Shown here: in pieces, positions 3,001 to 29,483 of the stretch | How positions within the stretch are numbered: position 1 is the stretch's first letter | Layout of the letters: every line of letters begins with the position of its first letter | Origin: Chloroflexota bacterium | GTDB lineage: Bacteria > Chloroflexota > Dehalococcoidia > JACPEP01 | Assembly (NCBI GenBank): GCA_016183425.1 | Contig: JACPEP010000018.1 | Location: 1 to 32,365 of the forward strand | Length of the DNA stretch: 32,365 bases | Reading direction: 5' to 3' | Made by a program: the position numbers and the translations under genes | The notes under the pieces: model-generated | Databases searched by the model: none | The model's input: the letters and a program-made list of their open reading frames with translations, nothing else | What the model was told of the DNA's origin: nothing

Positions 3001-4610
3001 GAAAGCTCATAGAGGGCTTGGGCCCGGCGCTGTTTCAGTACCCCGGCCAAACGGCTTAGCTCCTTTTTAGCGCCGCCTCTGTCCCCGGCTTTAGCTTGCT
3101 CTGTAGCCAGGCTAATCTCCCACTCCTGGGGACTGTAAACAGAAGCCTCTTGAAAGGCGCGTAGGGCCGTCTGATGCTTTCCCAGGGCGGACAATATCTG
3201 GCCCCGGCGGTAGTGTAAGTCAGGGCGTTGGGGGCTAAACATTATCGCCTCATCTATTTCTTCCAGCGCCTCCTGGAAACGGCCCGCCTCTTGGAAGGCC
3301 TGGGCCAGATAGAGATGGAGTCGCGAATCGGTTGTGCTGGGGCGTAGAGCCACCAGTAGACGACCAGAGGGTTCGTTCTCAACTAAACAGTCAACCACCA
3401 GCGTCAGCTTTTGAGGATCGAAGGGCGGGGCCAGAAGCTGGTCGAGAACGGCCCGCCGCCGCGAGGTCATCCCATAGAGATGAACCACAGCGCGGGCCCA
3501 GGGCGTCACCTCTGGGGAGAGGAGTGAGGTCAGGCTTTGACCGCCGACCAAAGCGGCCTCCAAGGCGAAGGCGGCGAAGAAGGCCCGGTACTCGGAATGG
3601 CTAAAGGCCAGCCCTTGTCGCCCCTCCGTCAAACGCAGCACCCCGGCCCTTACCAAATCCCCCCAAACCTCGTCACCCAGGACACCCCACAAGCCATCTT
3701 CCAGAATCGGCCGACAGCGCACTACTTCCAGGGTTTCCCGGTTTTCCTTCATCATAGTGAGAGCCAGTTTCCCCAAGGCATACCACCTCTGGGTGTTGCC
3801 TGGCCCAAGAATGCTTCCCACCAGACGAGATAGGAATTCCCTGACCGTAGGCGCTGACCCCTCGAAAGTCAAGGGACCCATCCGGCTCACACTGCCGGGA
3901 CTTTCGGCCAGTCCCCAAAGGCCCACTTGGGTGAGGATATTTGCCATCCTGCGGGCATTTTCCTCTCCCCCCATCTGGCACATGTAGCGATAGGCCGTCT
4001 CCTGATCTAGGGGAGCCAGGATAACCTTTTGGGCTGACCAGGACTCAAAGAAGGGCAAGTCATGTTCACGCACCGCCAAGACGATACGATGGCGTGGTGA
4101 GTAAAGGTTCAAGAACTGGATAGCCTTCATGGCCTCCATCTGCGAGCCCCAAGACTGCCGATCCCAGTGGTCGATGAGGAACAGGAGCTCATCGCCTCCC
4201 AGCGCCGTCTTCCATACCGATGGAGATGGCAGGTGGGCAGCCAGACAGCGAAAAGCCAGCTCTTCCCACCCCTCGCCAGGCTTTTTGGTCGCTAAGTCCA
4301 AATAGATGGGCACCCTCTCCTCGTCACAAAGAGGACTGGAGGAAAAATCGTCCCCCTCTCCGTGCAAGGCGTAATCGTAAAGAATAGATTGAAGCAGGGT
4401 TGTTTTGCCCGCACCGGGGCTGCCGACAATGATAGTAGTGGCAGACCCCGTAAGAGCCTCCGCCATGTCCCACAAGTTGTCCGTAGTGTCTTGAGATGGT
4501 AGAACAACCTGGGGAGGAATGAGTTGCCGCCGCAGGGACTTCAAGGTAGCATCACTGACTATGTGATGAAGATAGGCTTCAAAGCCCCTGGGCATGTTTT
4601 CCCTAGTCAT
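1..4610 (-). CDS. NACHT-like NTPase with very long TPR array (3' end outside window)
   Basis: The reading frame is open without a stop from the ATG at 4610 through base 1, at least 1,536 codons; the C-terminus lies outside the window. Residues 63-70 read GSPGAGKT (Walker A). LLFLIDHW ending near residue 148 is a Walker B-like strand with D147. A LAFSHSEYRAFFAAFAL segment near residues 330-350 matches the winged-helix end of NACHT/STAND modules. From about residue 430 to the window edge there are continuous 34-residue TPR units (roughly 30), with typical A-x-Y/H-L-G and Y/F-x-x-A-L patterns. No N-terminal effector domain is present: only about 60 residues precede the P-loop. The family suggests an ATP-dependent signalling scaffold that oligomerises when the TPR superhelix binds a ligand; the ligand and output are unknown. 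A second in-frame ATG lies at 4595. All plus-strand ORFs here are antisense shadows. Confidence 0.88.
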   Translation of the reverse strand, partial: MTRENMPRGFEAYLHHIVSDATLKSLRRQLIPPQVVLPSQDTTDNLWDMAEALTGSATTIIVGSPGAGKTTLLQSILYDYALHGEGDDFSSSPLCDEERVPIYLDLATKKPGEGWEELAFRCLAAHLPSPSVWKTALGGDELLFLIDHWDRQSWGSQMEAMKAIQFLNLYSPRHRIVLAVREHDLPFFESWSAQKVILAPLDQETAYRYMCQMGGEENARRMANILTQVGLWGLAESPGSVSRMGPLTFEGSAPTVREFLSRLVGSILGPGNTQRWYALGKLALTMMKENRETLEVVRCRPILEDGLWGVLGDEVWGDLVRAGVLRLTEGRQGLAFSHSEYRAFFAAFALEAALVGGQSLTSLLSPEVTPWARAVVHLYGMTSRRRAVLDQLLAPPFDPQKLTLVVDCLVENEPSGRLLVALRPSTTDSRLHLYLAQAFQEAGRFQEALEEIDEAIMFSPQRPDLHYRRGQILSALGKHQTALRAFQEASVYSPQEWEISLATEQAKAGDRGGAKKELSRLAGVLKQRRAQALYELSRLKMEEGLLKEAEEDGREAVALWPQGDLWHHLGGILMAQGRREEARQILQMAANNHALASAALGVLAEEEGRYSEALTHFRRAVELAPTEAPLHCQLGRVCRLAGQYSSGSFHLQRAAHLRPDYGEAYAEMARLLECQERHHDALEQARRACDVEPENPEHHELRGWLARSIGRLDEAETHMRQAVKLNPERGEWHNGLGVILWDKGNHLQAVVEYREAIRLEPANPMYYRNLGVAYTSMTDDEAALEAFEGALHQCEDGEEQEISSLSRFIAADVSNERGAILENHGKHQLALVEFQRAARLVPQRTDYRLNEGLIYGRLSQPYQMLHLLEKAAASQPHDPIVHYRLGQAYELLDCVQEAVTEYQTTTELSPTEGEFWKSLGRVQRRMGNLQEAASSLEKATSLQPGDAEVLFYLADIWEEEGQMSSAVDSYLRAARRAVDRAEYWLAAGRASRRAGRWGEAQTCLRTALSLDSGLAEARFELSQTLAKLGRVPEAAEEVKTALEACPKHVEGHFLLASIMESLGRGEEALAAARRGLEMDPSHVPGYRQIAKILVSLGREGEARELYGKVVALAPASADIYMEAGSLYFKQGLTQEAIDLWERAVAAEPHRPEGHFLLARGLLESQPASGGERALYHCQQALTGEERAEYHALAASVLERLEREEEALSHWNAATKLEPSSPQWLYQLGRMAEKRGEGDRAEEYYAAATRQAGGGFCYCHLARLYYQKGQYSEAVRAVQLGLEVGVNGDDLPPCYQQLGDALLALGRGGEAQHAYNTALQLGYESGILHRQLAVLCLAGGAVAEAVTHLERAMALGDDPPATHQLMAEALIRQGEGEMALAYAQRAFQAEPGNFLYRRQMGSTHRYLKRWEEAIAYLREALDVSPQDGGTWGELGLAYLGAGRGDEALAALREAVSLGRAESRLPLGRLLLERDRVKEACEELKEATNLSPDSAEAHFYLGRALEELGETDAALRAYQGAVSLGHPDPEARYRLAKL

Positions 4611-4649
4611 ACCTGCCTCTGCTTAGGAAACACCGTCACATTTTAGGCC

Positions 4650-4679
4650 ATTATAACAACTATAGCGACGGCTTCTCAA
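4650..4679 (-). promoter_or_regulatory. Promoter of the NACHT-TPR gene
   Basis: Minus-strand -35 TTGAGA (4674-4679), 18-base spacer, -10 TATAAT (4650-4655). It places the transcription start about 33 bases before the ATG at 4610. It lies just beyond the cytochrome terminator, so the NACHT-TPR gene is transcribed separately. Confidence 0.6.
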
Positions 4680-4698
4680 TGTTTCGTGCTCCTTAAAA

Positions 4699-4730
4699 GA
4701 GTAAGGCCAGCCTTTGGGCTGGCCTTACTC
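4699..4730 (-). terminator. Rho-independent terminator after the cytochrome gene
   Basis: A perfect 14-bp stem (4699-4712 with 4717-4730) and a four-base loop, followed on the minus strand by TTTT. It sits 19 bases after the stop of the cytochrome gene and separates it from the NACHT-TPR promoter. Confidence 0.9.
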
Positions 4731-4748
4731 ACTATTTGCGCCTAGTTG

Positions 4749-5627
4749 CTAGCTACCGATCCTCCTTGTCCAACGAAGGAGTGCGACGCCAGTCAGCAAA
4801 GCCAGACCACCAGCGGCAGCTAGAGGTAGGTAGGGAAGAGGGGTATCGCCTGTTTTCGGTAACACAGCAGGTGTAGGGGGAGCCTCTTCGCCGGTAGGTA
4901 AGGTTTGGGCAAAGGTCAAGACATCCACCGCTTTTTCACGAGCCCAGCCACTTTCAAAGCCCGAAGGCATCGGCGCTCCCGGTTGGCCGGACATGACCTT
5001 GTGCAGGAATTCCCAGGGGTTGTCGCTGGCAATGGTGCCCACGTACTCCGGCTCCTTCTCGCTTCCGAAGTTGAGCTGGGTGCCATCGGCACCATGACAA
5101 GGGGCACAGGAACTAGTGAACACTTGTTTTCCCTGCTCCAGGTTGCCGCCGATGGGTTTCTTAGTCTGATAGTTTATGTACTTGGAATCATCGGCTAGCC
5201 CCTCCTTCAAGAAATCTGCCAGGCTATCTATCAGTGCGGAGAAATCGTGTTTTGGATTGGTCGAGCCTTTAAGGATGGCCACTAGCTCCGCTTTGCTCTT
5301 GGCGGCGCCGGCGTTATAAACGCCGACGAAGCCCGTTTTGTGGGAGCCGGAGCCATAGGCGCCATCCTTGCCTTTGTAATCCCAACCGTGGCACTCCTTG
5401 CACCGCCAGGTGTCAGGACCCGTTCGTGTATTGGTAGTTTGCGATGCCCAGAGGGGATGGTCCCCCTTAGGCTCAACAGCGTTGGGAACCACTTTCCACC
5501 ACTTGTCATAGAGCTTGCCACCCTTGGCTATGCTGGCCGGGCTTGCCTGGGCCTGTGCCAGAGAATAGCCCGCTAGGGCAAGAAGGGCAACCATCGCTAC
5601 TACAAACCATCTCAGTTTGCTATTCAT
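4749..5627 (-). CDS. Diheme c-type cytochrome with LPxTG cell-wall sorting signal
   Basis: 292 residues from the ATG at 5627, chosen because AAGGAGAG lies about 9 bases upstream and the product then starts with a signal peptide (MNSKLRW plus hydrophobic core, AQA cleavage region near residue 27). Two heme-c motifs are visible: CKECH at 76-80 and CAPCH at 174-178, with likely axial Met residues downstream. The C-terminus has a Pro-rich linker, LPKTG at 256-260, a hydrophobic helix and RWTRR tail: the classic sortase substrate arrangement. The protein is therefore predicted to be exported, heme-loaded and either sortase-anchored or held by its C-terminal membrane helix. Role: electron transfer at the cell surface; the partner is unknown. 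An extended reading frame from a TTG at 5717 exists, but it would place 30 charged residues before the signal peptide and is unlikely. It follows the blaI-blaR1 operon but has its own upstream dyad. Confidence 0.9.
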   Translation of the reverse strand: MNSKLRWFVVAMVALLALAGYSLAQAQASPASIAKGGKLYDKWWKVVPNAVEPKGDHPLWASQTTNTRTGPDTWRCKECHGWDYKGKDGAYGSGSHKTGFVGVYNAGAAKSKAELVAILKGSTNPKHDFSALIDSLADFLKEGLADDSKYINYQTKKPIGGNLEQGKQVFTSSCAPCHGADGTQLNFGSEKEPEYVGTIASDNPWEFLHKVMSGQPGAPMPSGFESGWAREKAVDVLTFAQTLPTGEEAPPTPAVLPKTGDTPLPYLPLAAAGGLALLTGVALLRWTRRIGS

Positions 5628-5710
5628 CCCTCTACTCTCCTTCCTTAGCTCGTGTGCTCGCTGCCTGGGCGGATGTTGTCCCTGGAGGTTTGCCTCTCGT
5701 CCTATCTTCG

Positions 5711-5743
5711 CTACCAACCTCCTCTCACCCAGTGGATTCTCAT
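5711..5743 (-). CDS. Possible 10-residue leader peptide before the cytochrome
   Basis: An ATG at 5743 stands 7 bases after a strong AGGAGGT. It opens a 10-codon frame (MRIHWVRGGW, then TAG) ending 84 bases before the cytochrome start, in another frame. The ribosome site is better than that of the cytochrome itself. It could be a translated leader that affects expression of the downstream gene, or a decayed start. The peptide has two Trp codons but no terminator-type hairpin was recognised near it. Confidence 0.3.
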   Translation of the reverse strand: MRIHWVRGGW

Positions 5744-5759
5744 AATTCTTACCTCCTAC

Positions 5760-5778
5760 TTACTACTTAATGTAGTAA
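5760..5778. promoter_or_regulatory. BlaI/MecI-type operator dyad
   Basis: TTACTACTTAATGTAGTAA: two perfect 7-base arms (TTACTAC / GTAGTAA) around five bases. BlaI/MecI/CopY-family repressors bind TAC...GTA inverted repeats of this kind, and a BlaI-family gene lies 1 kb upstream. The site is between the blaR1 terminator and the cytochrome gene, overlapping the region where its promoter must lie. Assignment to BlaI is inference. Confidence 0.55.
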
Positions 5779-5784
5779 CAAAAA

Positions 5785-5806
5785 GCAAAAAGGGGACCCC
5801 CTTTGC
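5785..5806 (-). terminator. Terminator of the blaI-blaR1 operon
   Basis: On the minus strand a GCAAA...TTTGC-flanked GC stem (AAAGGGG paired with CCCCTTT) is followed by TTTTTG. It begins about 20 bases after the stop of the M56 peptidase gene. The stem can pair in more than one register. Confidence 0.6.
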
Positions 5807-5825
5807 CCTTTAGCTACCTATCACA

Positions 5826-6815
5826 TCAACAAAGGAAGAAAAGTACTGGGAACATGGGTGCTGCCGTGGCCCAGGGAAGCCACCGCTGGTAATACGGTAC
5901 CGGCCTCTGGGAGTAATCCATAATAGAGGTCAGGCGTCTCTTAAAGCCCTGGTTTTTAGAGACAAAGCACGCTCTAGTGCCTTGAAGGCGAAAGATCGCC
6001 TCATCCTCCCGACAGCGATGACCAACGTCTAGCAGACACTGGGCATAGCCCGCCGGTTTCCCCACCAGGCTGATGGCCAACCGGTCCGTGGCCATTTCTG
6101 ACTCTTGAAGCACCGCATCGCAGAGAAAATGAACCAGGGGGTTAAAGAAAAGAACATTTCTGAAGGTAAGCAGTAAGAAGTTGAGCCAGCCGTCTCGCCG
6201 TTTGATGTGAGCCACCTCGTGAGCGAGTATCCCCTTTAAGGAGGCATCATCCAGATGCTCCATCAGGCCCCGGGATAGGAGCAAATAAGAGCGATGAAGA
6301 CCGAAGGCACAGCACAAGCTCCTTTCCTCCTCGGCCACAAGAATCCGGGGCCGGGAGACGCCCGTCTGCCCCAGCAGCCCAGCCAATAGGGCATCCAGAC
6401 GAGGCTCCTCTCCTTCCGGCAGCGCTCTAAAATGCGACGGCAGGCGGAGCAAGCTCCACAGGCTAACTAACCCCTTTACGAGGAGAAAAGCAAAAATGGC
6501 AAGAACGATAGAGGTCAGAAGGGGAGACAAAACAGACCACAAAGGCCATGATGACAACCACTTCTCCACATTGAGCAGCCGGTCCGCAGCCAGCACCGGC
6601 AGCTTCTGACGCTGAGGAAAGAAAAGGTAGAAACTGGGAGCTGAAATAAGAGGAATAACCACCGGCACCAGGAAAAGAATGGCGCGTAGTGCCGCATCTC
6701 TCACCCGCAGCAACTTAACTAGGGCCAGAACGACCACCAGAACTACCACGGTGTGAAGGATGTTCTCCACCAGGTAGATATTCACCGACTGAATGAGGGA
6801 ACCAGTGTTGAACAT
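5826..6815 (-). CDS. BlaR1/MecR1-like M56 metallopeptidase without sensor domain
   Basis: 329 residues. The N-terminal ~120 residues contain several membrane helices. HEVAH at 199-203 is the M56 zinc motif, and ESEMATD near 238-244 carries the expected third ligand glutamate. In BlaR1/MecR1 this peptidase cleaves the partner repressor after an external signal. Here the protein ends soon after the last helix (FFLC), with no penicillin-binding sensor domain, so the signal cannot be a beta-lactam bound in the classical way. The ATG at 6815 follows the BlaI stop by 9 bases with AAGGGG as ribosome site, so the pair is co-transcribed. Substrate and signal are unknown; M56 proteins of this short form are common beside BlaI-like regulators. 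Confidence 0.87.
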   Translation of the reverse strand: MFNTGSLIQSVNIYLVENILHTVVVLVVVLALVKLLRVRDAALRAILFLVPVVIPLISAPSFYLFFPQRQKLPVLAADRLLNVEKWLSSWPLWSVLSPLLTSIVLAIFAFLLVKGLVSLWSLLRLPSHFRALPEGEEPRLDALLAGLLGQTGVSRPRILVAEEERSLCCAFGLHRSYLLLSRGLMEHLDDASLKGILAHEVAHIKRRDGWLNFLLLTFRNVLFFNPLVHFLCDAVLQESEMATDRLAISLVGKPAGYAQCLLDVGHRCREDEAIFRLQGTRACFVSKNQGFKRRLTSIMDYSQRPVPYYQRWLPWATAAPMFPVLFFLC

Positions 6816-6824
6816 CTTTTCCCC

Positions 6825-7244
6825 TTAGGGGGATTCCTCCTTTTTTTCCTTCACCAGCCGCTCCAGCTCCGCCAAGTCATCCTCCTTGAGGCGATGGACA
6901 AAGTAGGCCACGGCTGGCATGCCGAAATCCTGAAGCAAGCCGTCGATGATGCTCTTCACGAGAGACTGTGCCATTTCCTCTCGGCTCACCTGGGGCCAGT
7001 AGAGGTAGGCGTTGTTAGCCAGGGAACGGTGAAGAAAGCCGCGGTTGGCGAGACGAGACATAATAGTCATCACCGTGGTGTAGGCGATGGGCTGGCGGCT
7101 ATTTATTACCCCATGAACCTCAGCAACCGTGGCTGGTCCCCTTTGCCAAAGCACCTCCATCACCTCGGCTTGCCGGAAACCCAGCACCCGGGCCATGCCC
7201 TTCTGGTTGAAGCGGAACCGGATACTCGTCAAGATATCTTTCAT
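6825..7244 (-). CDS. BlaI/MecI/CopY-family transcriptional repressor
   Basis: 139 residues. Residues ~20-80 form the winged helix typical of the family (LGFRQAEVMEVLWQRGPATVAEV, then the AYTTVMTIMSRLANRGFL recognition region). The C-terminal part (residues 90-135) is the helical dimerisation and cleavage region, ending in a charged KEKKEESP tail. It is first in an operon with the M56 peptidase, the standard repressor plus protease-anti-repressor pair. Expected role: represses its own promoter and nearby targets until cleaved. A candidate target is the cytochrome gene, whose upstream region holds a TACTAC/GTAGTA dyad. Confidence 0.92.
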   Translation of the reverse strand: MKDILTSIRFRFNQKGMARVLGFRQAEVMEVLWQRGPATVAEVHGVINSRQPIAYTTVMTIMSRLANRGFLHRSLANNAYLYWPQVSREEMAQSLVKSIIDGLLQDFGMPAVAYFVHRLKEDDLAELERLVKEKKEESP

Positions 7245-7323
7245 TGATTTATTCCACTACCTCAATAATTTTGTTCTATTTGCCTGCCTATTTGTACTCT
7301 GCGTCATCACCGCTATGTAGCTA

Positions 7324-7398
7324 AAATTCAGTACTAACCTTACCTATGTGGATAGAATCACTATTACGGTATGTAGTTTATAGTACCAAACTGAATTT
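7324..7398. repeat. Inverted repeat in the blaI upstream region
   Basis: AAATTCAGT (7324-7332) and ACTGAATTT (7390-7398) are perfect inverted copies. TACTA (7332-7336) and TAGTA (7381-7385) add a second, inner inverted pair of the kind BlaI-family proteins bind. The outer arm abuts the TTGACA of the presumed blaI promoter. It may be paired operators for looping or an mRNA leader hairpin. Confidence 0.45.
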
Positions 7399-7403
7399 GT
7401 CAA
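7375..7403 (-). promoter_or_regulatory. Promoter of the blaI-blaR1 operon
   Basis: Minus-strand TTGACA (7398-7403), 17-base spacer, TAAACT (7375-7380); an alternative -10 TATAAA overlaps at 7377-7382. It leaves a leader of about 125 bases before blaI. The -35 end overlaps one arm of the inverted repeat at 7324-7398, suggesting autoregulation. Confidence 0.5.
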
Positions 7404-7461
7404 CACTTTTAGCCCGCCCATTGTGCCACCTCATCGGTATCCCCCTTCCCAAAGGCCACGA

Positions 7462-7495
7462 TTGACAGTCGGCTTATAATCTATCATCATGATAG
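7462..7495 (+). promoter_or_regulatory. Candidate promoter-operator of the aminopeptidase operon
   Basis: TATAAT (7475-7480) is followed at once by a perfect dyad CTATCAT-c-ATGATAG (7481-7495) at the expected transcription start. A TTGACA (7462-7467) is only 7 bases upstream of TATAAT, too close to be its -35. The dyad looks like a repressor site; the promoter itself is weakly supported. No regulator is assigned. Confidence 0.4.
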
Positions 7496-7534
7496 GGCGA
7501 CAAACCAGAGTAACGTTGTAGAGGAGGTAGCAAG

Positions 7535-8494
7535 TTGAACCTAGTGGAGGCAATGAAATATGCCCACATCCCCCTGGCACTGAACGGCAAGGCAGGGGAA
7601 GAGGTGATGATCTTAACCGATAGTCGCACCGATCCCCTTATCGGACAGGCCCTGGCAGCGGCGGCTTTTGAAATGGGTATGGAGCCAACCCTAATGACCA
7701 TCGTCGCCCGAGCCGCCCACGGCCACGAGCCCCCCAAAGGAGCCGCCGAGGCCATGAAAGGGGTCTTTCTCCTCATTTGCGCCACCTCCACGGCCATGAC
7801 CCATACCGACGCGGTACGGGGCGCCCTCCGTCAGGGAGTCAAATATATCTCCATGCCCAGTATTACACTGGATATGCTATGCAACGGCGCCGCCACCGCC
7901 GACTACCAAGAGGTGGACCGCATCACAGCCACTGTAGCAGACATCCTCAACCGTGGCAGTAAGGTGCGCGTCACCTCCCCCCAAGGCACCGATTTGGTTC
8001 TCAGCATCGCCCAGCGGCCCTGTTTTCCCCTCTCAGGTATCGTACACCCCGGCACCATAGCCGGCTTCCCTGACGGTGAGGCAGCCATAGCGCCGGTGGA
8101 GGGCACGACGGAAGGAACGCTGGTCTTCGATCAGACCATGCACACCATGGGTCTCCTCACCGAGCCTATAGCTTTCACTGTGTCCAAGGGGAGGGTAGTG
8201 GAAGTGCGGGGCGGCGCCCAGGCTAAGGCCCTGGAGGAGCTGTGGCAGCGTCACGGAGATGATAACTCTCGCCAAATAGGGGAGTTCGCCGTGGGCACCA
8301 ACCCCAAGGCGCGCATCAGTGGCAATGCCACTGAGGATAAGAAGCGAGCCGGCACCATCCATATCGGACTAGGTGACAACTCCACTCTAGCGGGAAAGGT
8401 TGTCAGCGCCACCCACCTGGATGGCGTCCTTTCTCAGCCCACGGTTTGGGTGGACGGGCATCTGCTGGTGGATGGTGGAAAGCTAAAGGTCTGA
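7535..8494 (+). CDS. Aminopeptidase T / leucyl aminopeptidase-like (M29-related)
   Basis: 319 residues starting at a TTG, supported by GAGGAGG seven bases upstream. The C-terminal half has the pattern seen in thermophilic-type aminopeptidases of the M29 group: GEFAVGTNPKARISGNATED, HIGLGDN, and HLDGVLSQPTVWVDGHLLVD, which together carry Glu, His and Asp metal-ligand candidates. The N-terminal half is an alpha/beta domain binding the other side of the active site. It is shorter than typical M29 enzymes of about 400 residues, and NicX-type dihydroxypyridine dioxygenases share the fold, so exact substrate is uncertain. Expected role: metal-dependent removal of N-terminal residues from peptides in the cytoplasm. 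The MscS gene follows 26 bases after the stop. Confidence 0.75.
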   Translation: MNLVEAMKYAHIPLALNGKAGEEVMILTDSRTDPLIGQALAAAAFEMGMEPTLMTIVARAAHGHEPPKGAAEAMKGVFLLICATSTAMTHTDAVRGALRQGVKYISMPSITLDMLCNGAATADYQEVDRITATVADILNRGSKVRVTSPQGTDLVLSIAQRPCFPLSGIVHPGTIAGFPDGEAAIAPVEGTTEGTLVFDQTMHTMGLLTEPIAFTVSKGRVVEVRGGAQAKALEELWQRHGDDNSRQIGEFAVGTNPKARISGNATEDKKRAGTIHIGLGDNSTLAGKVVSATHLDGVLSQPTVWVDGHLLVDGGKLKV

Positions 8495-24157: not shown

Positions 24158-26530
24158 GTGGGCGAGGCATCATCGGTGTATACTAACAACAAAGGGTATG
24201 AAAGCCCCCCGGTACCAAAGCGAGTGGTGAAAACATTCTCCTGGTTTCTGCACAGTGTCGTCGGTCGAGTCACCTTTGCCGCTGTTTTGGGATCGCTGAC
24301 CCTTCTGGGGCTTCTGGGCTATATTGGCTTGGCGGCGGTGAGAGAAAGCACAGAGCTGGCCCTGGCGGAGCGTCTCAATCTGGCCCAAGCCACGGCCGAG
24401 CAGGTAGAGCAACACCTTTTACAGGAAGTAGTGGGGGAAATGGCGCAGTGGGTGCCAAACATAGATCCCCAGGGGGAGAAAGAGGATCAGAAAAGGGCAC
24501 TGGGACGCCTGTTCTCCACGCCTCATAGCGGCTTCGCTCCCCGAGCCCTTTTCCTTCTTGACAAGCAAGGGGATCTGGTGTGGGCTGAGCCCAGTGGCCC
24601 ATGGTCGGTTACAGAAGCTCAATACAAAGGGGATCACGTGATCCGGGCCATGACAACCGGCCAGCCCAGAGTATCTAACCTTATAACGGGAGACACGCCT
24701 AGTAGTCATATCATCTCAGTGGTAGTGCCCCTAAAAAATGATGGAGGGGAAGTGGTGGGGGCCCTGGGAAGCATCCTCAACCCCGAAGAAATCGCCTCCA
24801 CCCTATCCGTGCAGTTCATAGCCGCCCAGGGCAAGGAGCGCTACGGCCAACTGGTGGACCAGAATGGCCATGCCCTGGCCAGCAGTAGAGAGATAGACAC
24901 GTTCCAAAAAGTAGACCACGCCGACCGGATAGCAAACCTGATGGCTGAGGGCAAGGCCAAGGTGACCACATGCCACAGTTGCCATGGCCCAGACCTCCTA
25001 AAGGGTCGCGTCAGAGAAGTGGCCGCCTTCGCCCCCCTCTCCGTGGCCCCCTGGGGGGTGATTATCCGGCAGACGGAAGCGGAAGCCCTCGCCCCCAGTC
25101 GACAACTGCAAAGACTGCTGCTCATCGTTTCCGTAGGCATGGTGGTGGCGGTTGCCCTGGCCATGTGGCCCCTCTCTCGGAGCATGGTGGCACCTCTCCG
25201 TGCCCTCTCAGGAGCCTCGCGGAGAATGGCCCGGGGCGACCTAGAGGTGGCCGTGCCAATATCAGGACCGGCGGAGGTGAGAGAACTGGCCCTGGACTTT
25301 GAAGCTATGAGAGAGAAGCTCAAAGCCTCCTTGGAAGAAGTGAGGAGCATCAATCAGGAACTGGAGGAGAGAGTTAAGCTACGCACTACAGAGTTGGAGC
25401 GCCGCACCCAGGAGCTAGAGGCCGTATACTCCGTGGTGGCTATGAGCCAGCACCTCAGCGTCCAAGAGATCCTGGATAGCGCACTGGCCAGGGTCCTGGA
25501 TATCCTGGCCCTCAAAGCGGGGTGGATTATGCTCCGAGACGGCGAGAAAGCCAGATTGAAACCCATGGCTTGGCGGGGCATCTCTCCAGAAGCGGTCATG
25601 GAAGAAGTAGACGGCCATGGAGACGTGGCCGCCCGGGCAGGAGCCAAACTCTTGCACCTCAGGCCAGAGACCCCTTTGTTCGCCGCCGGTGTGTCATGTT
25701 TCCTCAGTGTGCCCCTGGGCATTCGAGAACAAGCACTGGGGGTCTTGAATATAGCCTGCCGAGATGACTGTAGCTTCACAGAAGAAGAGCTACGTCTTCT
25801 AAACTCCATAGGCCAACAACTGGGGGTAGCCGTAGACAATGCTCGCCTCTATCGAGAGCTACAGCAGAAAGAGGAGTTGCGAGGACAGCTTCTGGGCCAG
25901 ACCATCGCCGCCCAAGAGGAGGAACGACGGCGCATCGCCCGGGAGCTTCATGACTCCTTGGCCCAGATCGTAACCGGCCTCACCATCAACCTGGAGGCCC
26001 TGGCCAAGACCGCGCCGGAGACAACCAAAGAAGGGATAGACAAAAGTCGAGCCGCGGCGGCATCGGCCCTGGACGAATTGCGCCGCTTGATTGTGGAGCT
26101 TCGCCCTAGCGTCTTGGACGATCTAGGCCTGGTTCCCGCCATAAGGTGGTACGCCGAAAAACGCCTCCTTGAGAGCGGGGTGGCCGTGGAATTCAGCGCC
26201 GCCGGCTTTGAAAAACGCCTGCCCGGCGAGCTAGAGACGACTATCTTTCGCACCCTTCAGGAGGCTATTAACAACGTGGCCAAGCATGCCCAGGCCAGGC
26301 AGGCAAAGATTGCCTTACGGGTGTACGATTCCATGGTGCAAGTCACAGTGGAGGACGATGGACGGGGCTTCGATACCCAAGTGATGAATATTAGCCCGAT
26401 AGTAACCGGTCACTGGGGATTGGTGGGCATGAAAGAACGGGTCGCCCTTCTAGGAGGCACCGTGACCATCTGGTCTCAGCCAGGACGGGGCACCAAAGTC
26501 ACCTTGGATATACCAATAGAATACAAATAG
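24158..26530 (+). CDS. NarL-type sensor histidine kinase with extracytoplasmic heme-c motif
   Basis: 790 residues from GTG 24158 (GTGs at 24176 and 24227 are alternatives; no clear ribosome site). TM1 at ~32-62, an extracytoplasmic Cache-like domain at ~65-315, TM2 at ~320-340, HAMP to ~395, coiled coil, GAF at ~425-565, HisKA_3 dimerisation helix with RELHDSLAQ (phosphoacceptor His598), and an HATPase domain with NNVAKHA and DDGRGFD. In the sensor domain TTCHSCHGPDLLKG carries CxxCH at 272-276, the covalent heme-c attachment motif, on the outside where heme c is attached. It is therefore probably a heme-based redox or gas (NO/CO/O2) sensor. The cognate regulator follows 22 bases downstream and a membrane redox operon follows that. 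Confidence 0.88.
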   Translation: MGEASSVYTNNKGYESPPVPKRVVKTFSWFLHSVVGRVTFAAVLGSLTLLGLLGYIGLAAVRESTELALAERLNLAQATAEQVEQHLLQEVVGEMAQWVPNIDPQGEKEDQKRALGRLFSTPHSGFAPRALFLLDKQGDLVWAEPSGPWSVTEAQYKGDHVIRAMTTGQPRVSNLITGDTPSSHIISVVVPLKNDGGEVVGALGSILNPEEIASTLSVQFIAAQGKERYGQLVDQNGHALASSREIDTFQKVDHADRIANLMAEGKAKVTTCHSCHGPDLLKGRVREVAAFAPLSVAPWGVIIRQTEAEALAPSRQLQRLLLIVSVGMVVAVALAMWPLSRSMVAPLRALSGASRRMARGDLEVAVPISGPAEVRELALDFEAMREKLKASLEEVRSINQELEERVKLRTTELERRTQELEAVYSVVAMSQHLSVQEILDSALARVLDILALKAGWIMLRDGEKARLKPMAWRGISPEAVMEEVDGHGDVAARAGAKLLHLRPETPLFAAGVSCFLSVPLGIREQALGVLNIACRDDCSFTEEELRLLNSIGQQLGVAVDNARLYRELQQKEELRGQLLGQTIAAQEEERRRIARELHDSLAQIVTGLTINLEALAKTAPETTKEGIDKSRAAAASALDELRRLIVELRPSVLDDLGLVPAIRWYAEKRLLESGVAVEFSAAGFEKRLPGELETTIFRTLQEAINNVAKHAQARQAKIALRVYDSMVQVTVEDDGRGFDTQVMNISPIVTGHWGLVGMKERVALLGGTVTIWSQPGRGTKVTLDIPIEYK

Positions 26531-26552: not shown

Positions 26553-27221
26553 ATGGACAATGGCGACCGGATTAAGGTTCTGATAGCCGAAGATCACCCC
26601 ATCGTCCGCGACGGGTTGCGTATGCTATTACGCAGCTATAGCGACATGGAGGTGGTAGCTGAGGCCACCGATGGAGACGAGGCAGTAGAGAAAGCCCTCC
26701 AGCACCACCCAGATGTTGTCCTCATGGATGTGGCGATGCCCAAAATGAGCGGCATCGAAGCCACCCGAGCAATCAAAGAGCGGGAGCCCGACATCAAGAT
26801 CCTGACCCTAACGGTGCATGACAGCCAGGACTACTTCTTCCGCATCGTTCAGGCGGGTGCCTCGGGCTACATCCTCAAAGGGGACACCTCCAGCGAGCTG
26901 GTAGCCGCCATTCGAGCGGTGCAGCGGGGTGGGGTTTTCCTATCGCCCCTGGTAGCCAAAAGACTCATGGAGGATTACCTGCGCCGGGTGGCCAGTGGCG
27001 AGGAGAATGCCAGCTACAATGGACTCACAGAGAGGGAACGGGAGGTCCTGAAACTCATCGCCCAGGGGCATACAAACCAGGAGGTGGCCGATCTCCTCTC
27101 CATAAGTCCTTACACCGTCCAGACCCATCGCGCCCATATCATGGAAAAGCTAAATCTTCATAGCCGCTCCGACCTTATTAGATTTGCCATTAAAAAGGGG
27201 TTAATAGATATGAGTGCCTAG
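26553..27221 (+). CDS. NarL/FixJ-family response regulator
   Basis: 222 residues. Receiver domain at 8-125 with acidic pair Glu13/Asp14, phosphoacceptor Asp59 (VVLMDVAMP), the Thr of LTLTVHD near 87 and Lys109. LuxR-type helix-turn-helix at ~155-215 (LTEREREVLKLIAQGHTNQEVADLL, then SPYTVQTHRAHIMEKL). AAGGAGG five bases before the ATG is a strong ribosome site. It is the partner of the heme-motif kinase and most likely activates the downstream NrfD operon or its own promoter. Putative binding sites are the 13-base direct repeats at 27406 and 27608, by position only. Confidence 0.94.
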   Translation: MDNGDRIKVLIAEDHPIVRDGLRMLLRSYSDMEVVAEATDGDEAVEKALQHHPDVVLMDVAMPKMSGIEATRAIKEREPDIKILTLTVHDSQDYFFRIVQAGASGYILKGDTSSELVAAIRAVQRGGVFLSPLVAKRLMEDYLRRVASGEENASYNGLTEREREVLKLIAQGHTNQEVADLLSISPYTVQTHRAHIMEKLNLHSRSDLIRFAIKKGLIDMSA

Positions 27222-27405
27222 CCTGACACCGCTCTACATCTCCTGATTTTTCCTGCCCAGCCAAGGGCAACACATATCCCTCTCTTAAGCCCCCTTGCCC
27301 CCTAAAAACCCCCACCGATTGCTCACTTTAGTAGATGCTATACTCCAATCATATTACCTTATAGCCACACTTTATCCCTAATTCAGCTAATCTATCCACT
27401 ATATA

Positions 27406-27418
27406 AAGGTACTAGGCC
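27406..27418 (+). repeat. 13-base direct repeat, upstream copy
   Basis: AAGGTACTAGGCC, identical to 27608-27620, 202 bases apart. It overlaps the TATAAA at 27402-27407. Confidence 0.5.
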
Positions 27419-27607
27419 CACTGTTTTTTCTTCTTCTGTGTAGAGAAGCTAGCAGACTCTCGTAACTATTTTTTGTCCTCGAAATCATAAGGAGACGGGA
27501 TGTTAGACGATGGATGCTAGCAGTAACATTGTCTATGGAGAAGTGAAAATTAACACAATAAGGGACTAAGGCTCTAGTAAAAAGGATGTCAAAGTGTTTC
27601 CATCATC

Positions 27608-27620
27608 AAGGTACTAGGCC
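27608..27620 (+). repeat. 13-base direct repeat, downstream copy
   Basis: AAGGTACTAGGCC, identical to 27406-27418. It sits 23 bases before the first gene of the NrfD operon and may be a regulator site or a recombination scar. Confidence 0.5.
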
Positions 27621-27642
27621 TTGGCGAGAAAGGAGGGAGAAG

Positions 27643-27957
27643 ATGGCAGCCGTAGCGGAAAAGGGTAGAACCATAGCCTATACGGGGGGCATCCTTCTCG
27701 GCCTGGCGGTGTTTACCCTCGTGAGTCTGGCGCTTCCCCTAAGCGCGGCCCTGGCGGCAGTAGGGCTGCCGCTGCTGGTGGCCGGGCTGGCGATGAACCT
27801 GGTGGGGCGAATCACCGCCTCCCGGGCCGGGGGCGACACATACCCAACCCTCAGCGAGGAGGATTACCGTATCCTCTTTGGTCTTCCAGCCCACGGCGAG
27901 GGAAAGGCCACCGCACCCAGAGAGAAGGTGGTTTTGCGAGGAGGCAATAAAGGATGA
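27643..27957 (+). CDS. Small membrane protein of the NrfD operon
   Basis: 104 residues from the ATG at 27643, chosen for AAAGGAGGG just upstream. Two membrane helices (~9-33 and ~36-55) are followed by a ~50-residue charged cytoplasmic tail containing YPTLSEEDYRILFGLP. No family is recognised. Its last four bases overlap the NrfD start (ATGA), so the two are translationally coupled and probably form one complex. A longer frame from 27586 lacks a ribosome site of comparable quality. Confidence 0.75.
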   Translation: MAAVAEKGRTIAYTGGILLGLAVFTLVSLALPLSAALAAVGLPLLVAGLAMNLVGRITASRAGGDTYPTLSEEDYRILFGLPAHGEGKATAPREKVVLRGGNKG

Positions 27958-29219
27958 GAGTAGCTCAAAGTCACCATCTAAACCAGTTGACCCATCTGGG
28001 GGCCGGGTTCTACTGCGTATCCGCCGTCTTGGCCGGGCTGCTCCTCTGGGGCCTATACACCTGGGGCTCTCAACAGCTCATCTACGGCCTAGGGGTAACC
28101 GCCCTAAACGTACCCTTCTACTGGGGTGCTTATATCGTCAACTTCGTCTTTTTTGTCGGGCTCAGCGCCGGCGGCATCGTGGTCGCCTCCATGGTGCACG
28201 CCCTGGGCTTAGAGCGGTTTCGACCCGTCAGCCGCATCGCCGAAGTTCTGGCTATTAGCTGTCTTACCCTGGCCACCATGTTCATCTTCTTTGACCTGGG
28301 ACGGCCTGACCGCTTCCTTAACCTACTGAAGTACGCCCGGCCCATGTCGCCATTGATCTGGGACGTCATTGTCATCACCCTGTACATGGGGATGGCCCTG
28401 ATCCTGGCTTACTTCAGCACTCGGGTGGACCTGGTGCGGTGCATGGAGAAGATCCCTAGCCGTAGCAGATTCTACCGATGGCTGACCTTGGGCTACACCG
28501 ATGTCTCCCCGCGCGCCCTGGCCCGGGATAAAATCATCCTTCGGGTGTTCGCCGTCCTGGCCATCCCCGGTGCCGTGGCCCTTCATTCCGTCACCGCCTG
28601 GATCTTTGGCCTTTTGAAAGCTACCCCGGGCTGGAACACCGCTATTCTGGCACCCCTCTTTGTCGGCTCGGCTCTGGTCTCCGGCCTGGCTCTGGTGACC
28701 CTAACCTCCGTTCTGGGACGGCAATTCCTCAAACTGGACATCGAGGAGAAGCTGATTCGGGACATGGGCAAGCTCCTGGCTTTCCTCATCCCTGTCCTGG
28801 GCTACTTCCTCTTCGCCGAATGGATCACCGTCATGTACGCCCAGGAGCCCGCTCGTCTGTCCCTCTTTCAGGAGCTGATGTTTGGCAACTACGCCACCGT
28901 GTTTTGGTTCGACCTCCTCCTGGGGCTTATTATTCCCTTCGTTATACTGGCGGTGCCCGGCACCCGAACCGTGGCCGGCGTCGGCCTGGCCTCGGCTCTG
29001 GTAGTAGTAGGGGTACTGGCAGAGAGGGTGAACCTGGTGGTGGCCCCTCTCATGTTCCGTTTTCTGGTGCCCCAAATCACTTTCTACGTACCCAGTTGGG
29101 TGGAGCTATCGGTGATTCTGGGCACTTATGCCGTGGGCGTCTTGGTTTTCGTTGTTCTGGCCAAGATTCTGCCCTTGGTGGAAATAGAGGAGCCCGCTTC
29201 TCGACGGGCAGGAATTTAA
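27954..29219 (+). CDS. NrfD/PsrC-family membrane subunit
   Basis: 421 residues with about ten membrane helices. The motif GLSAGGIVVASMVHALGLERF near 63-83 and FFDLGRPDRFLNLLKYARPMSPLIWDV near 105-131 are conserved in NrfD/PsrC proteins; the latter lies by the quinone site. CHSVTAWIF-type residues are seen as ALHSVTAWIFGLL near 204. In PsrABC, tetrathionate and related enzymes this subunit exchanges electrons with the quinone pool for an Fe-S subunit (PsrB) and a Mo-bis-MGD catalytic subunit (PsrA). Neither of those is in this operon. It lies downstream of a heme-type two-component system and within 10 kb of mobA-moeA-mobB. Confidence 0.9.
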   Translation: MRVAQSHHLNQLTHLGAGFYCVSAVLAGLLLWGLYTWGSQQLIYGLGVTALNVPFYWGAYIVNFVFFVGLSAGGIVVASMVHALGLERFRPVSRIAEVLAISCLTLATMFIFFDLGRPDRFLNLLKYARPMSPLIWDVIVITLYMGMALILAYFSTRVDLVRCMEKIPSRSRFYRWLTLGYTDVSPRALARDKIILRVFAVLAIPGAVALHSVTAWIFGLLKATPGWNTAILAPLFVGSALVSGLALVTLTSVLGRQFLKLDIEEKLIRDMGKLLAFLIPVLGYFLFAEWITVMYAQEPARLSLFQELMFGNYATVFWFDLLLGLIIPFVILAVPGTRTVAGVGLASALVVVGVLAERVNLVVAPLMFRFLVPQITFYVPSWVELSVILGTYAVGVLVFVVLAKILPLVEIEEPASRRAGI

Positions 29220-29231
29220 TAGGAGGTGAGG

Positions 29232-29483
29232 ATGTCTAAAAGCGTGATGTACCTCGGGGCAGCGGTCGGCCCGTGGCTGATGATGTATCTGTCCTATAGC
29301 GTACTGGCCGCCGAGGCATGGTGGCTGTTCGCCTTCTTCGCCTTTGTGATAATGGTCGCCGCCCTCTTCATGGTCTGGCTCTTCGCCGATTGGGTACCCC
29401 AGCCAGAGGCCACTGAAGAAGGGGAGCGTCTGCGAGCACCCGCCTTCCAGCAGCGCCACAGCCAGAGGCCTTCCGGCTTCTAA
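29232..29483 (+). CDS. Small membrane protein, last gene of the NrfD operon
   Basis: 83 residues from the ATG at 29232; AGGAGG ends five bases upstream and 12 bases separate it from the NrfD stop. Two membrane helices (~5-24 and ~27-50) and a charged tail rich in Glu, Arg and Gln. Family not recognised. It resembles the first operon protein in size and layout, suggesting that both are accessory subunits that flank the NrfD protein in the membrane. Confidence 0.72.
   Translation: MSKSVMYLGAAVGPWLMMYLSYSVLAAEAWWLFAFFAFVIMVAALFMVWLFADWVPQPEATEEGERLRAPAFQQRHSQRPSGF

Follow-up and report, generated by a model that had tools for sequence, protein, structure and literature searches.

A sensor histidine kinase of 790 aa, encoded in a Chloroflexota genome, very likely carries one covalent heme c on a CHSCH motif in its extracytoplasmic double Cache domain, as predicted from the motif itself, its position and its co-occurrence with cytochrome c maturation genes. 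The kinase lies in a 32,365-bp stretch of DNA, hereafter called the window. Its sensor belongs to a family designated here dCache_heme, which is distinct from the sCache_heme family (PF11845), and the system as a whole is probably a redox- or gas-responsive heme-c double-Cache kinase governing electron-transport genes via a NarL-type response regulator.

Domain layout and fold of the kinase

The kinase ORF is open throughout and begins with a GTG codon, the true start codon being uncertain. The protein has the order TM1, double Cache, TM2, HAMP, GAF, HisKA_3 and HATPase (Table 1), with the last four domains all scoring above the Pfam cut-offs and the dCache_1 profile matching residues 130-303 below its own (33 bits against 45). 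CHSCH is the sole CxxCH motif in the protein, the expectation from the kinase's own composition being 0.0006 per protein. The first-pass annotation, made from the sequence alone, had placed this motif in an extracytoplasmic Cache-like domain between two membrane helices, and this placement holds: hydrophobic segments are found on either side of it, and residues 62-315 are assigned to the outside because the HAMP and kinase domains come after TM2. The Cache assignment can be made more exact, since the AlphaFold2 model shows a double Cache with the motif in the membrane-proximal module. The GAF domain, also claimed earlier, is present above its cut-off and is a possible further input. Its cysteines were considered as an Fe-S site and this was rejected, as they are not conserved. 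In the HisKA_3 domain His598, within the ELHDS sequence, is likely to be the phosphorylated residue.

Table 1 Features of the kinase and its downstream genes in the window
Feature	Position (nt)	Strand	Basis
Sensor histidine kinase, 790 aa	24158..26530	+	ORF, Pfam
TM1, residues ~34-61	24257..24340	+	Kyte-Doolittle scan
Membrane-distal Cache module, residues ~130-207, with a long helix (55-96) ahead of it	24545..24778	+	AlphaFold2 model
Membrane-proximal Cache module with the motif, residues 229-306	24842..25075	+	AlphaFold2 models
Tyr229	24842..24844	+	Alignment, motif group vs motif-free
Asp253-His254	24914..24919	+	Alignment
CHSCH, residues 272-276, predicted heme-c attachment site, beta-3/beta-4 loop	24971..24985	+	
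Arg304	25067..25069	+	Alignment, motif group vs motif-free
TM2, residues ~316-344	25103..25189	+	Hydrophobicity
HAMP, residues 339-389	25172..25324	+	PF00672
GAF, residues 433-560	25454..25837	+	PF13185
HisKA_3, residues 589-653	25922..26116	+	PF07730
HATPase_c, residues 693-787	26234..26518	+	PF02518
NarL-type response regulator, receiver and GerE/LuxR domains	26553..27221	+	Pfam
Small membrane protein without a Pfam family; possible start at 27643	27586..27957	+	
NrfD-family quinone-interacting membrane protein	27954..29219	+	PF03916
Small membrane protein, 85 aa, adjoining NrfD	29226..29483	+	ORF, hydrophobic sequence

AlphaFold2, run with 36 aligned family members, gave a confident double Cache (pLDDT 88.8, pTM 0.86), for which the best PDB matches found with Foldseek are dCache ligand-binding domains, among them MkcA, KinD, PctA and TlpQ (probability 1.00). 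In the membrane-proximal module the motif comes after beta-3 and ahead of a short helix and beta-4, in a loop which is about three residues longer when the motif is present (median 25 against 22 in the motif-free group). All 36 family members match dCache_1 (PF02743) at E up to 1, the best value being 2e-18. When the proximal module alone was searched, Foldseek returned WalK, MkcA, McpH and further Cache/PAS structures, and 3B42, 3B47 and 5B82 were absent among the 50 matches listed.

Conservation and relationships of the CHxCH motif

The sensor domain alone, without selection for the motif, was searched against 100 genomes of the same class, among which there is none from the window's own genus or family, and matches were found in 29 of them; the 12 closest matches outside the window's genome all carry CHxCH. 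Further loci came from a phylum-wide search with a profile built from motif-bearing members and from named genomes searched with motif-favouring patterns. Among the 104 aligned sensor domains, 64 have the motif at the same position and 40 lack it, a ratio which is no frequency because both added sets of loci are biased to the motif. Cys272, Cys275 and His276 are present in all 64 members of the motif group, whose identity to the window sequence is about 30%. Together with the 12 closest matches this indicates that the motif is not there by chance, and the conservation of CxxCH which the first-pass annotation had made a test of its reading is thus borne out. The same annotation had also asked for a check on the conservation of an axial ligand; no strictly conserved Met or Cys distal ligand was found in the sensor-domain alignment. 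In one of the 64 sensors, L037, the site takes the CX3CH form CHSGCH.

Three further positions go with the motif: Tyr229 (94% in the motif group against 17% in the motif-free relatives), Asp253 (91% against 12%) and Arg304 (94% against 0%). His254, a close neighbour of the motif in the sequence, is conserved whether or not the motif is present.

On a tree of the 104 sequences the motif changes state only twice, compared with a mean of 32 changes for shuffled labels, and the number is still two with the motif columns omitted and six long-branch rows dropped. The window sequence itself sits at the margin of the motif group, on a long branch, and the nearest relatives of this group include motif-free dCaches. 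As the tree has no root and its deep forks have weak support, a single gain of the motif is a possible reading of this pattern.

Several relatives have other residues in this region. L117 and L120 carry CLGC, that is CxxC without the His, in the same loop, and one group among the motif-free relatives (L059, L060, L065, L116 and L129-L131) keeps a His in a shortened loop of the YR-x-H type, which is perhaps the remnant of a site since lost, or else a more ancient metal ligand. In locus L058 the sensor ORF at 4830-7784 (+) has no proximal motif; its distal Cache module has a CX3CH instead, CLNMCH. ORFs with five and two CxxCH motifs adjoin it.

The named loci are from Chloroflexota (records of Chloroflexi, Dehalococcoidia and Anaerolineae) and one Nitrospirae metagenome bin; among them dCache_heme is mostly a Chloroflexota family. 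The Nitrospirae locus (L094, bin JdFR-88) comprises a CHRCH dCache kinase, a regulator and a nearby ORF with four motifs, and its kinase may be due either to horizontal transfer or to a binning error.

Predicted heme attachment and comparison with known Cache sensors

The window's genome possesses a System I cluster on contig C12 with genes for CcmE, CcmF, CcmB, CcmC and likely CcmA, and, away from this cluster, CcsB- and ResB-type proteins. It thus combines a CxxCH motif outside the membrane with a maturation system, as is characteristic of c-type heme proteins. A CcmF-type protein, distinguished by frame length from its shorter relatives, was detected in 17 of the 18 genomes with motif-bearing sensors compared with 33 of the 82 others among the 100 genomes (Fisher p = 3e-5, a statistic that ignores the relatedness of the genomes), and in 6 of the 11 genomes with only motif-free relatives. 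The one motif-bearing sensor without a detected CcmF is in genome G025, which is 88% complete. All this supports the heme-c sensor reading of the first-pass annotation, with the covalent heme itself being a prediction. A cytochrome origin of the motif segment was also considered and rejected, as the matches to a diheme cytochrome and to reaction-centre cytochromes were weak and not significant (best E 0.06).

The closest described parallel is sCache_heme (PF11845, DUF3365/Tll0287-like), a class set out in 2026 which includes GSU0582, GSU0935, Tll0287 and a sensor from P. azotoformans and in which a single Cache carries CXXCH in a beta-3/beta-4 insertion, with c-type heme proven by spectroscopy (PMC12889525, 2026 preprint). 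Its authors describe it as the first Cache known to carry a covalent cofactor and as rare or absent in Chloroflexota (PMC12889525). The window family is similar in that its Cache fold is extracytoplasmic, has CxxCH and a short helix inserted between beta-3 and beta-4 and is joined to HAMP and signalling outputs, but it differs in being a double Cache, as follows from the confident model and the dCache PDB matches, and in having CHxCH with the extra near-invariant His. With respect to dCache_1 (PF02743), represented by KinD, PctA, TlpQ and MkcA, the fold and sequence family are the same; however, these solved dCaches bind small ligands (amino acids, pyruvate, histamine) and have no covalent cofactor, and the proximal loop is longer in the window family and contains CHxCH. 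No heme-bearing dCache was described in the literature searched, which lacks most subscription journals.

Periplasmic c-type heme in transmembrane signal transducers is shared with the Geobacter heme-c two-component proteins and Desulfovibrio DcrA. In Geobacter sulfurreducens there are eight two-component proteins with heme-c motifs, of which GSU0582 and GSU0935 were read as redox sensors that also bind NO and CO (PMC8396549); as regards sensor folds, the comparison covers these two as members of PF11845 (PMC12889525). The output half of the kinase resembles NarX/NarQ-NarL, with HAMP, a GAF-like linker, a HisKA_3 kinase and a NarL-type regulator, and gives partial profile matches over the kinase which are far below the equivalog cut-offs (NarQ 134 bits against 553, NarX 94 against 578). 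NarX and NarQ sense nitrate via a helical domain and without heme.

It could be suggested that the proximal module is a divergent PF11845 module to which a distal Cache was added, leaving no separate origin to explain, and the identical beta-3/beta-4 position and common Cache superfamily (PMC12889525) are in keeping with this. Such descent is, however, very improbable. PF11845 has no match in the window protein, nor in any of the 36 family members at E up to 1, all of which match dCache_1 instead; the profile comparison with a single PF11845 member, a weak test, aligned 17 columns around the motif with a probability of 4%; and motif-free dCaches are far closer relatives. PF11845 was found in 1 of 148 genomes of the class and not in the window's genome. 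Another explanation is that CHxCH does not hold heme at all and instead binds Zn or another metal ion, or acts as a thiol-disulfide switch, through Cys272, Cys275 and His276 with His273 or His254. It draws on the extra His273, which is dispensable for heme attachment and is present in 63 of the 64 motif-group sensors but in none of the 77 CxxCH motifs of the neighbouring multiheme cytochromes, so that the motif may do more than bind heme, or something else; the conservation of His254 and the CxxC without His retained in L117 and L120 are also compatible with such a site. Against it are the exact CxxCH (with the single CX3CH exception) on the side where maturation acts, the CcmF association, and the use of the same slot in a Cache family for which heme c has been demonstrated (PMC12889525); moreover, an outside-exposed CxxC in a genome with cytochrome c maturation would be a likely substrate. 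A non-heme site is therefore unlikely.

For the heme reading the near-invariant His273 is the weakest point, since it hints at a further role of the motif or at a metal site other than heme. Its position next to the first Cys makes it unlikely to ligate the same iron. With covalent heme c as the preferred reading, we give an even chance to the view that the cofactor was acquired for a second time, independently of PF11845 and in the same slot of a double Cache, with this His serving signalling, for instance as a ligand or hydrogen-bonding partner across the receptor dimer. If true, a separate double-Cache heme family in Chloroflexota would suggest that the same Cache loop took up heme more than once. 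With the closest motif-free relatives on hand, gain or loss of the cofactor in a sensor becomes directly testable.

Gene neighbourhood and the proposed signal

The regulator gene starts 22 bases downstream of the kinase, and a regulator follows the kinase in all related loci with room on the contig. With its receiver and GerE/LuxR domains, it confirms the NarL-type output proposed in the first-pass annotation, and the adjoining HisKA_3 kinase makes the pair a two-component system of the NarL type. The NrfD gene lies 0.7 kb past the regulator, flanked by the two small membrane proteins. A gene for NrfD is located within 7.5 kb of 9 of 45 motif-bearing sensors, about ten times the 0.9 expected from simple density, and of 6 of 16 motif-free sensors (0.3 expected); since this proximity is shared by the motif-free relatives, it says nothing on heme and applies to the whole dCache family. 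Multiheme cytochromes also recur near the related sensors. Gene position thus points to control of electron-transport genes by the sensor/regulator pair, and NrfD, by its proximity, is most likely the target. If borne out, a separate family of this kind would offer a handle on respiratory regulation in uncultured subsurface Chloroflexota.

It is proposed that one heme, exported and attached by the System I (or II) machinery of the genome, would sit on CHSCH, in the loop between beta-3 and beta-4 of the membrane-proximal module, with His276 as the proximal ligand. A shift in the redox state of the heme, or the binding of a small gas (NO, for example), would alter the distal coordination, and the proximal module would then move TM2 and HAMP, possibly under modulation by GAF, so that the HisKA_3 and HATPase domains could phosphorylate the adjacent regulator; the latter would in turn govern electron-transport genes, in this locus most likely those of the NrfD cluster that follows it.

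As to the main signal, we lean towards the redox state of an outside electron-transfer chain rather than a gas, given that the neighbouring genes are electron-transfer genes and that GSU0582 and GSU0935 have been read as redox sensors. The same heme-c dCache could instead be a gas sensor proper, with NO (or O2, CO) binding at an open distal site. The signal-linked sCache_heme proteins bind NO tightly, form no stable O2 complex and have the properties of NO sensors (PMC12889525), and the lack of a conserved Met or Cys distal ligand makes an exchangeable site plausible; a haem-copper oxidase and an NnrS-like protein are encoded in the window's genome, so that both O2 and NO are conceivable signals. 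Yet the neighbours are NrfD and cytochromes and not NO-handling genes, and the two Geobacter proteins are read as redox sensors in spite of binding NO and CO (PMC8396549), which leaves a dedicated gas sensor as a tentative alternative.

In the region upstream of the NrfD cluster there is a 16-nt direct repeat, ATAAAGGTACTAGGCC (27403-27418) and ATCAAGGTACTAGGCC (27605-27620), with the copies 202 bases apart. Being upstream of the cluster and at its start, these copies are possible candidate sites for the regulator; of the two upstream regions compared, only that of NrfD contains repeats, none being found ahead of the kinase. Promoter-like sites are no more numerous than in shuffled sequence. 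A cytochrome c-like protein with CKECH and CAPCH and a weak Cytochrome_CBB3 match is encoded at 4749-5717 (-).

Elsewhere in the window's genome, on contig C33, locus L137 contains a possible NO-response cluster: an NnrS-like/haem-copper-oxidase-like protein bearing DUF1858 domains is encoded at 3261-8347 (-), and after it come a putative Crp/FNR-like gene and genes for a NarL-type regulator and a HisKA_3 kinase.
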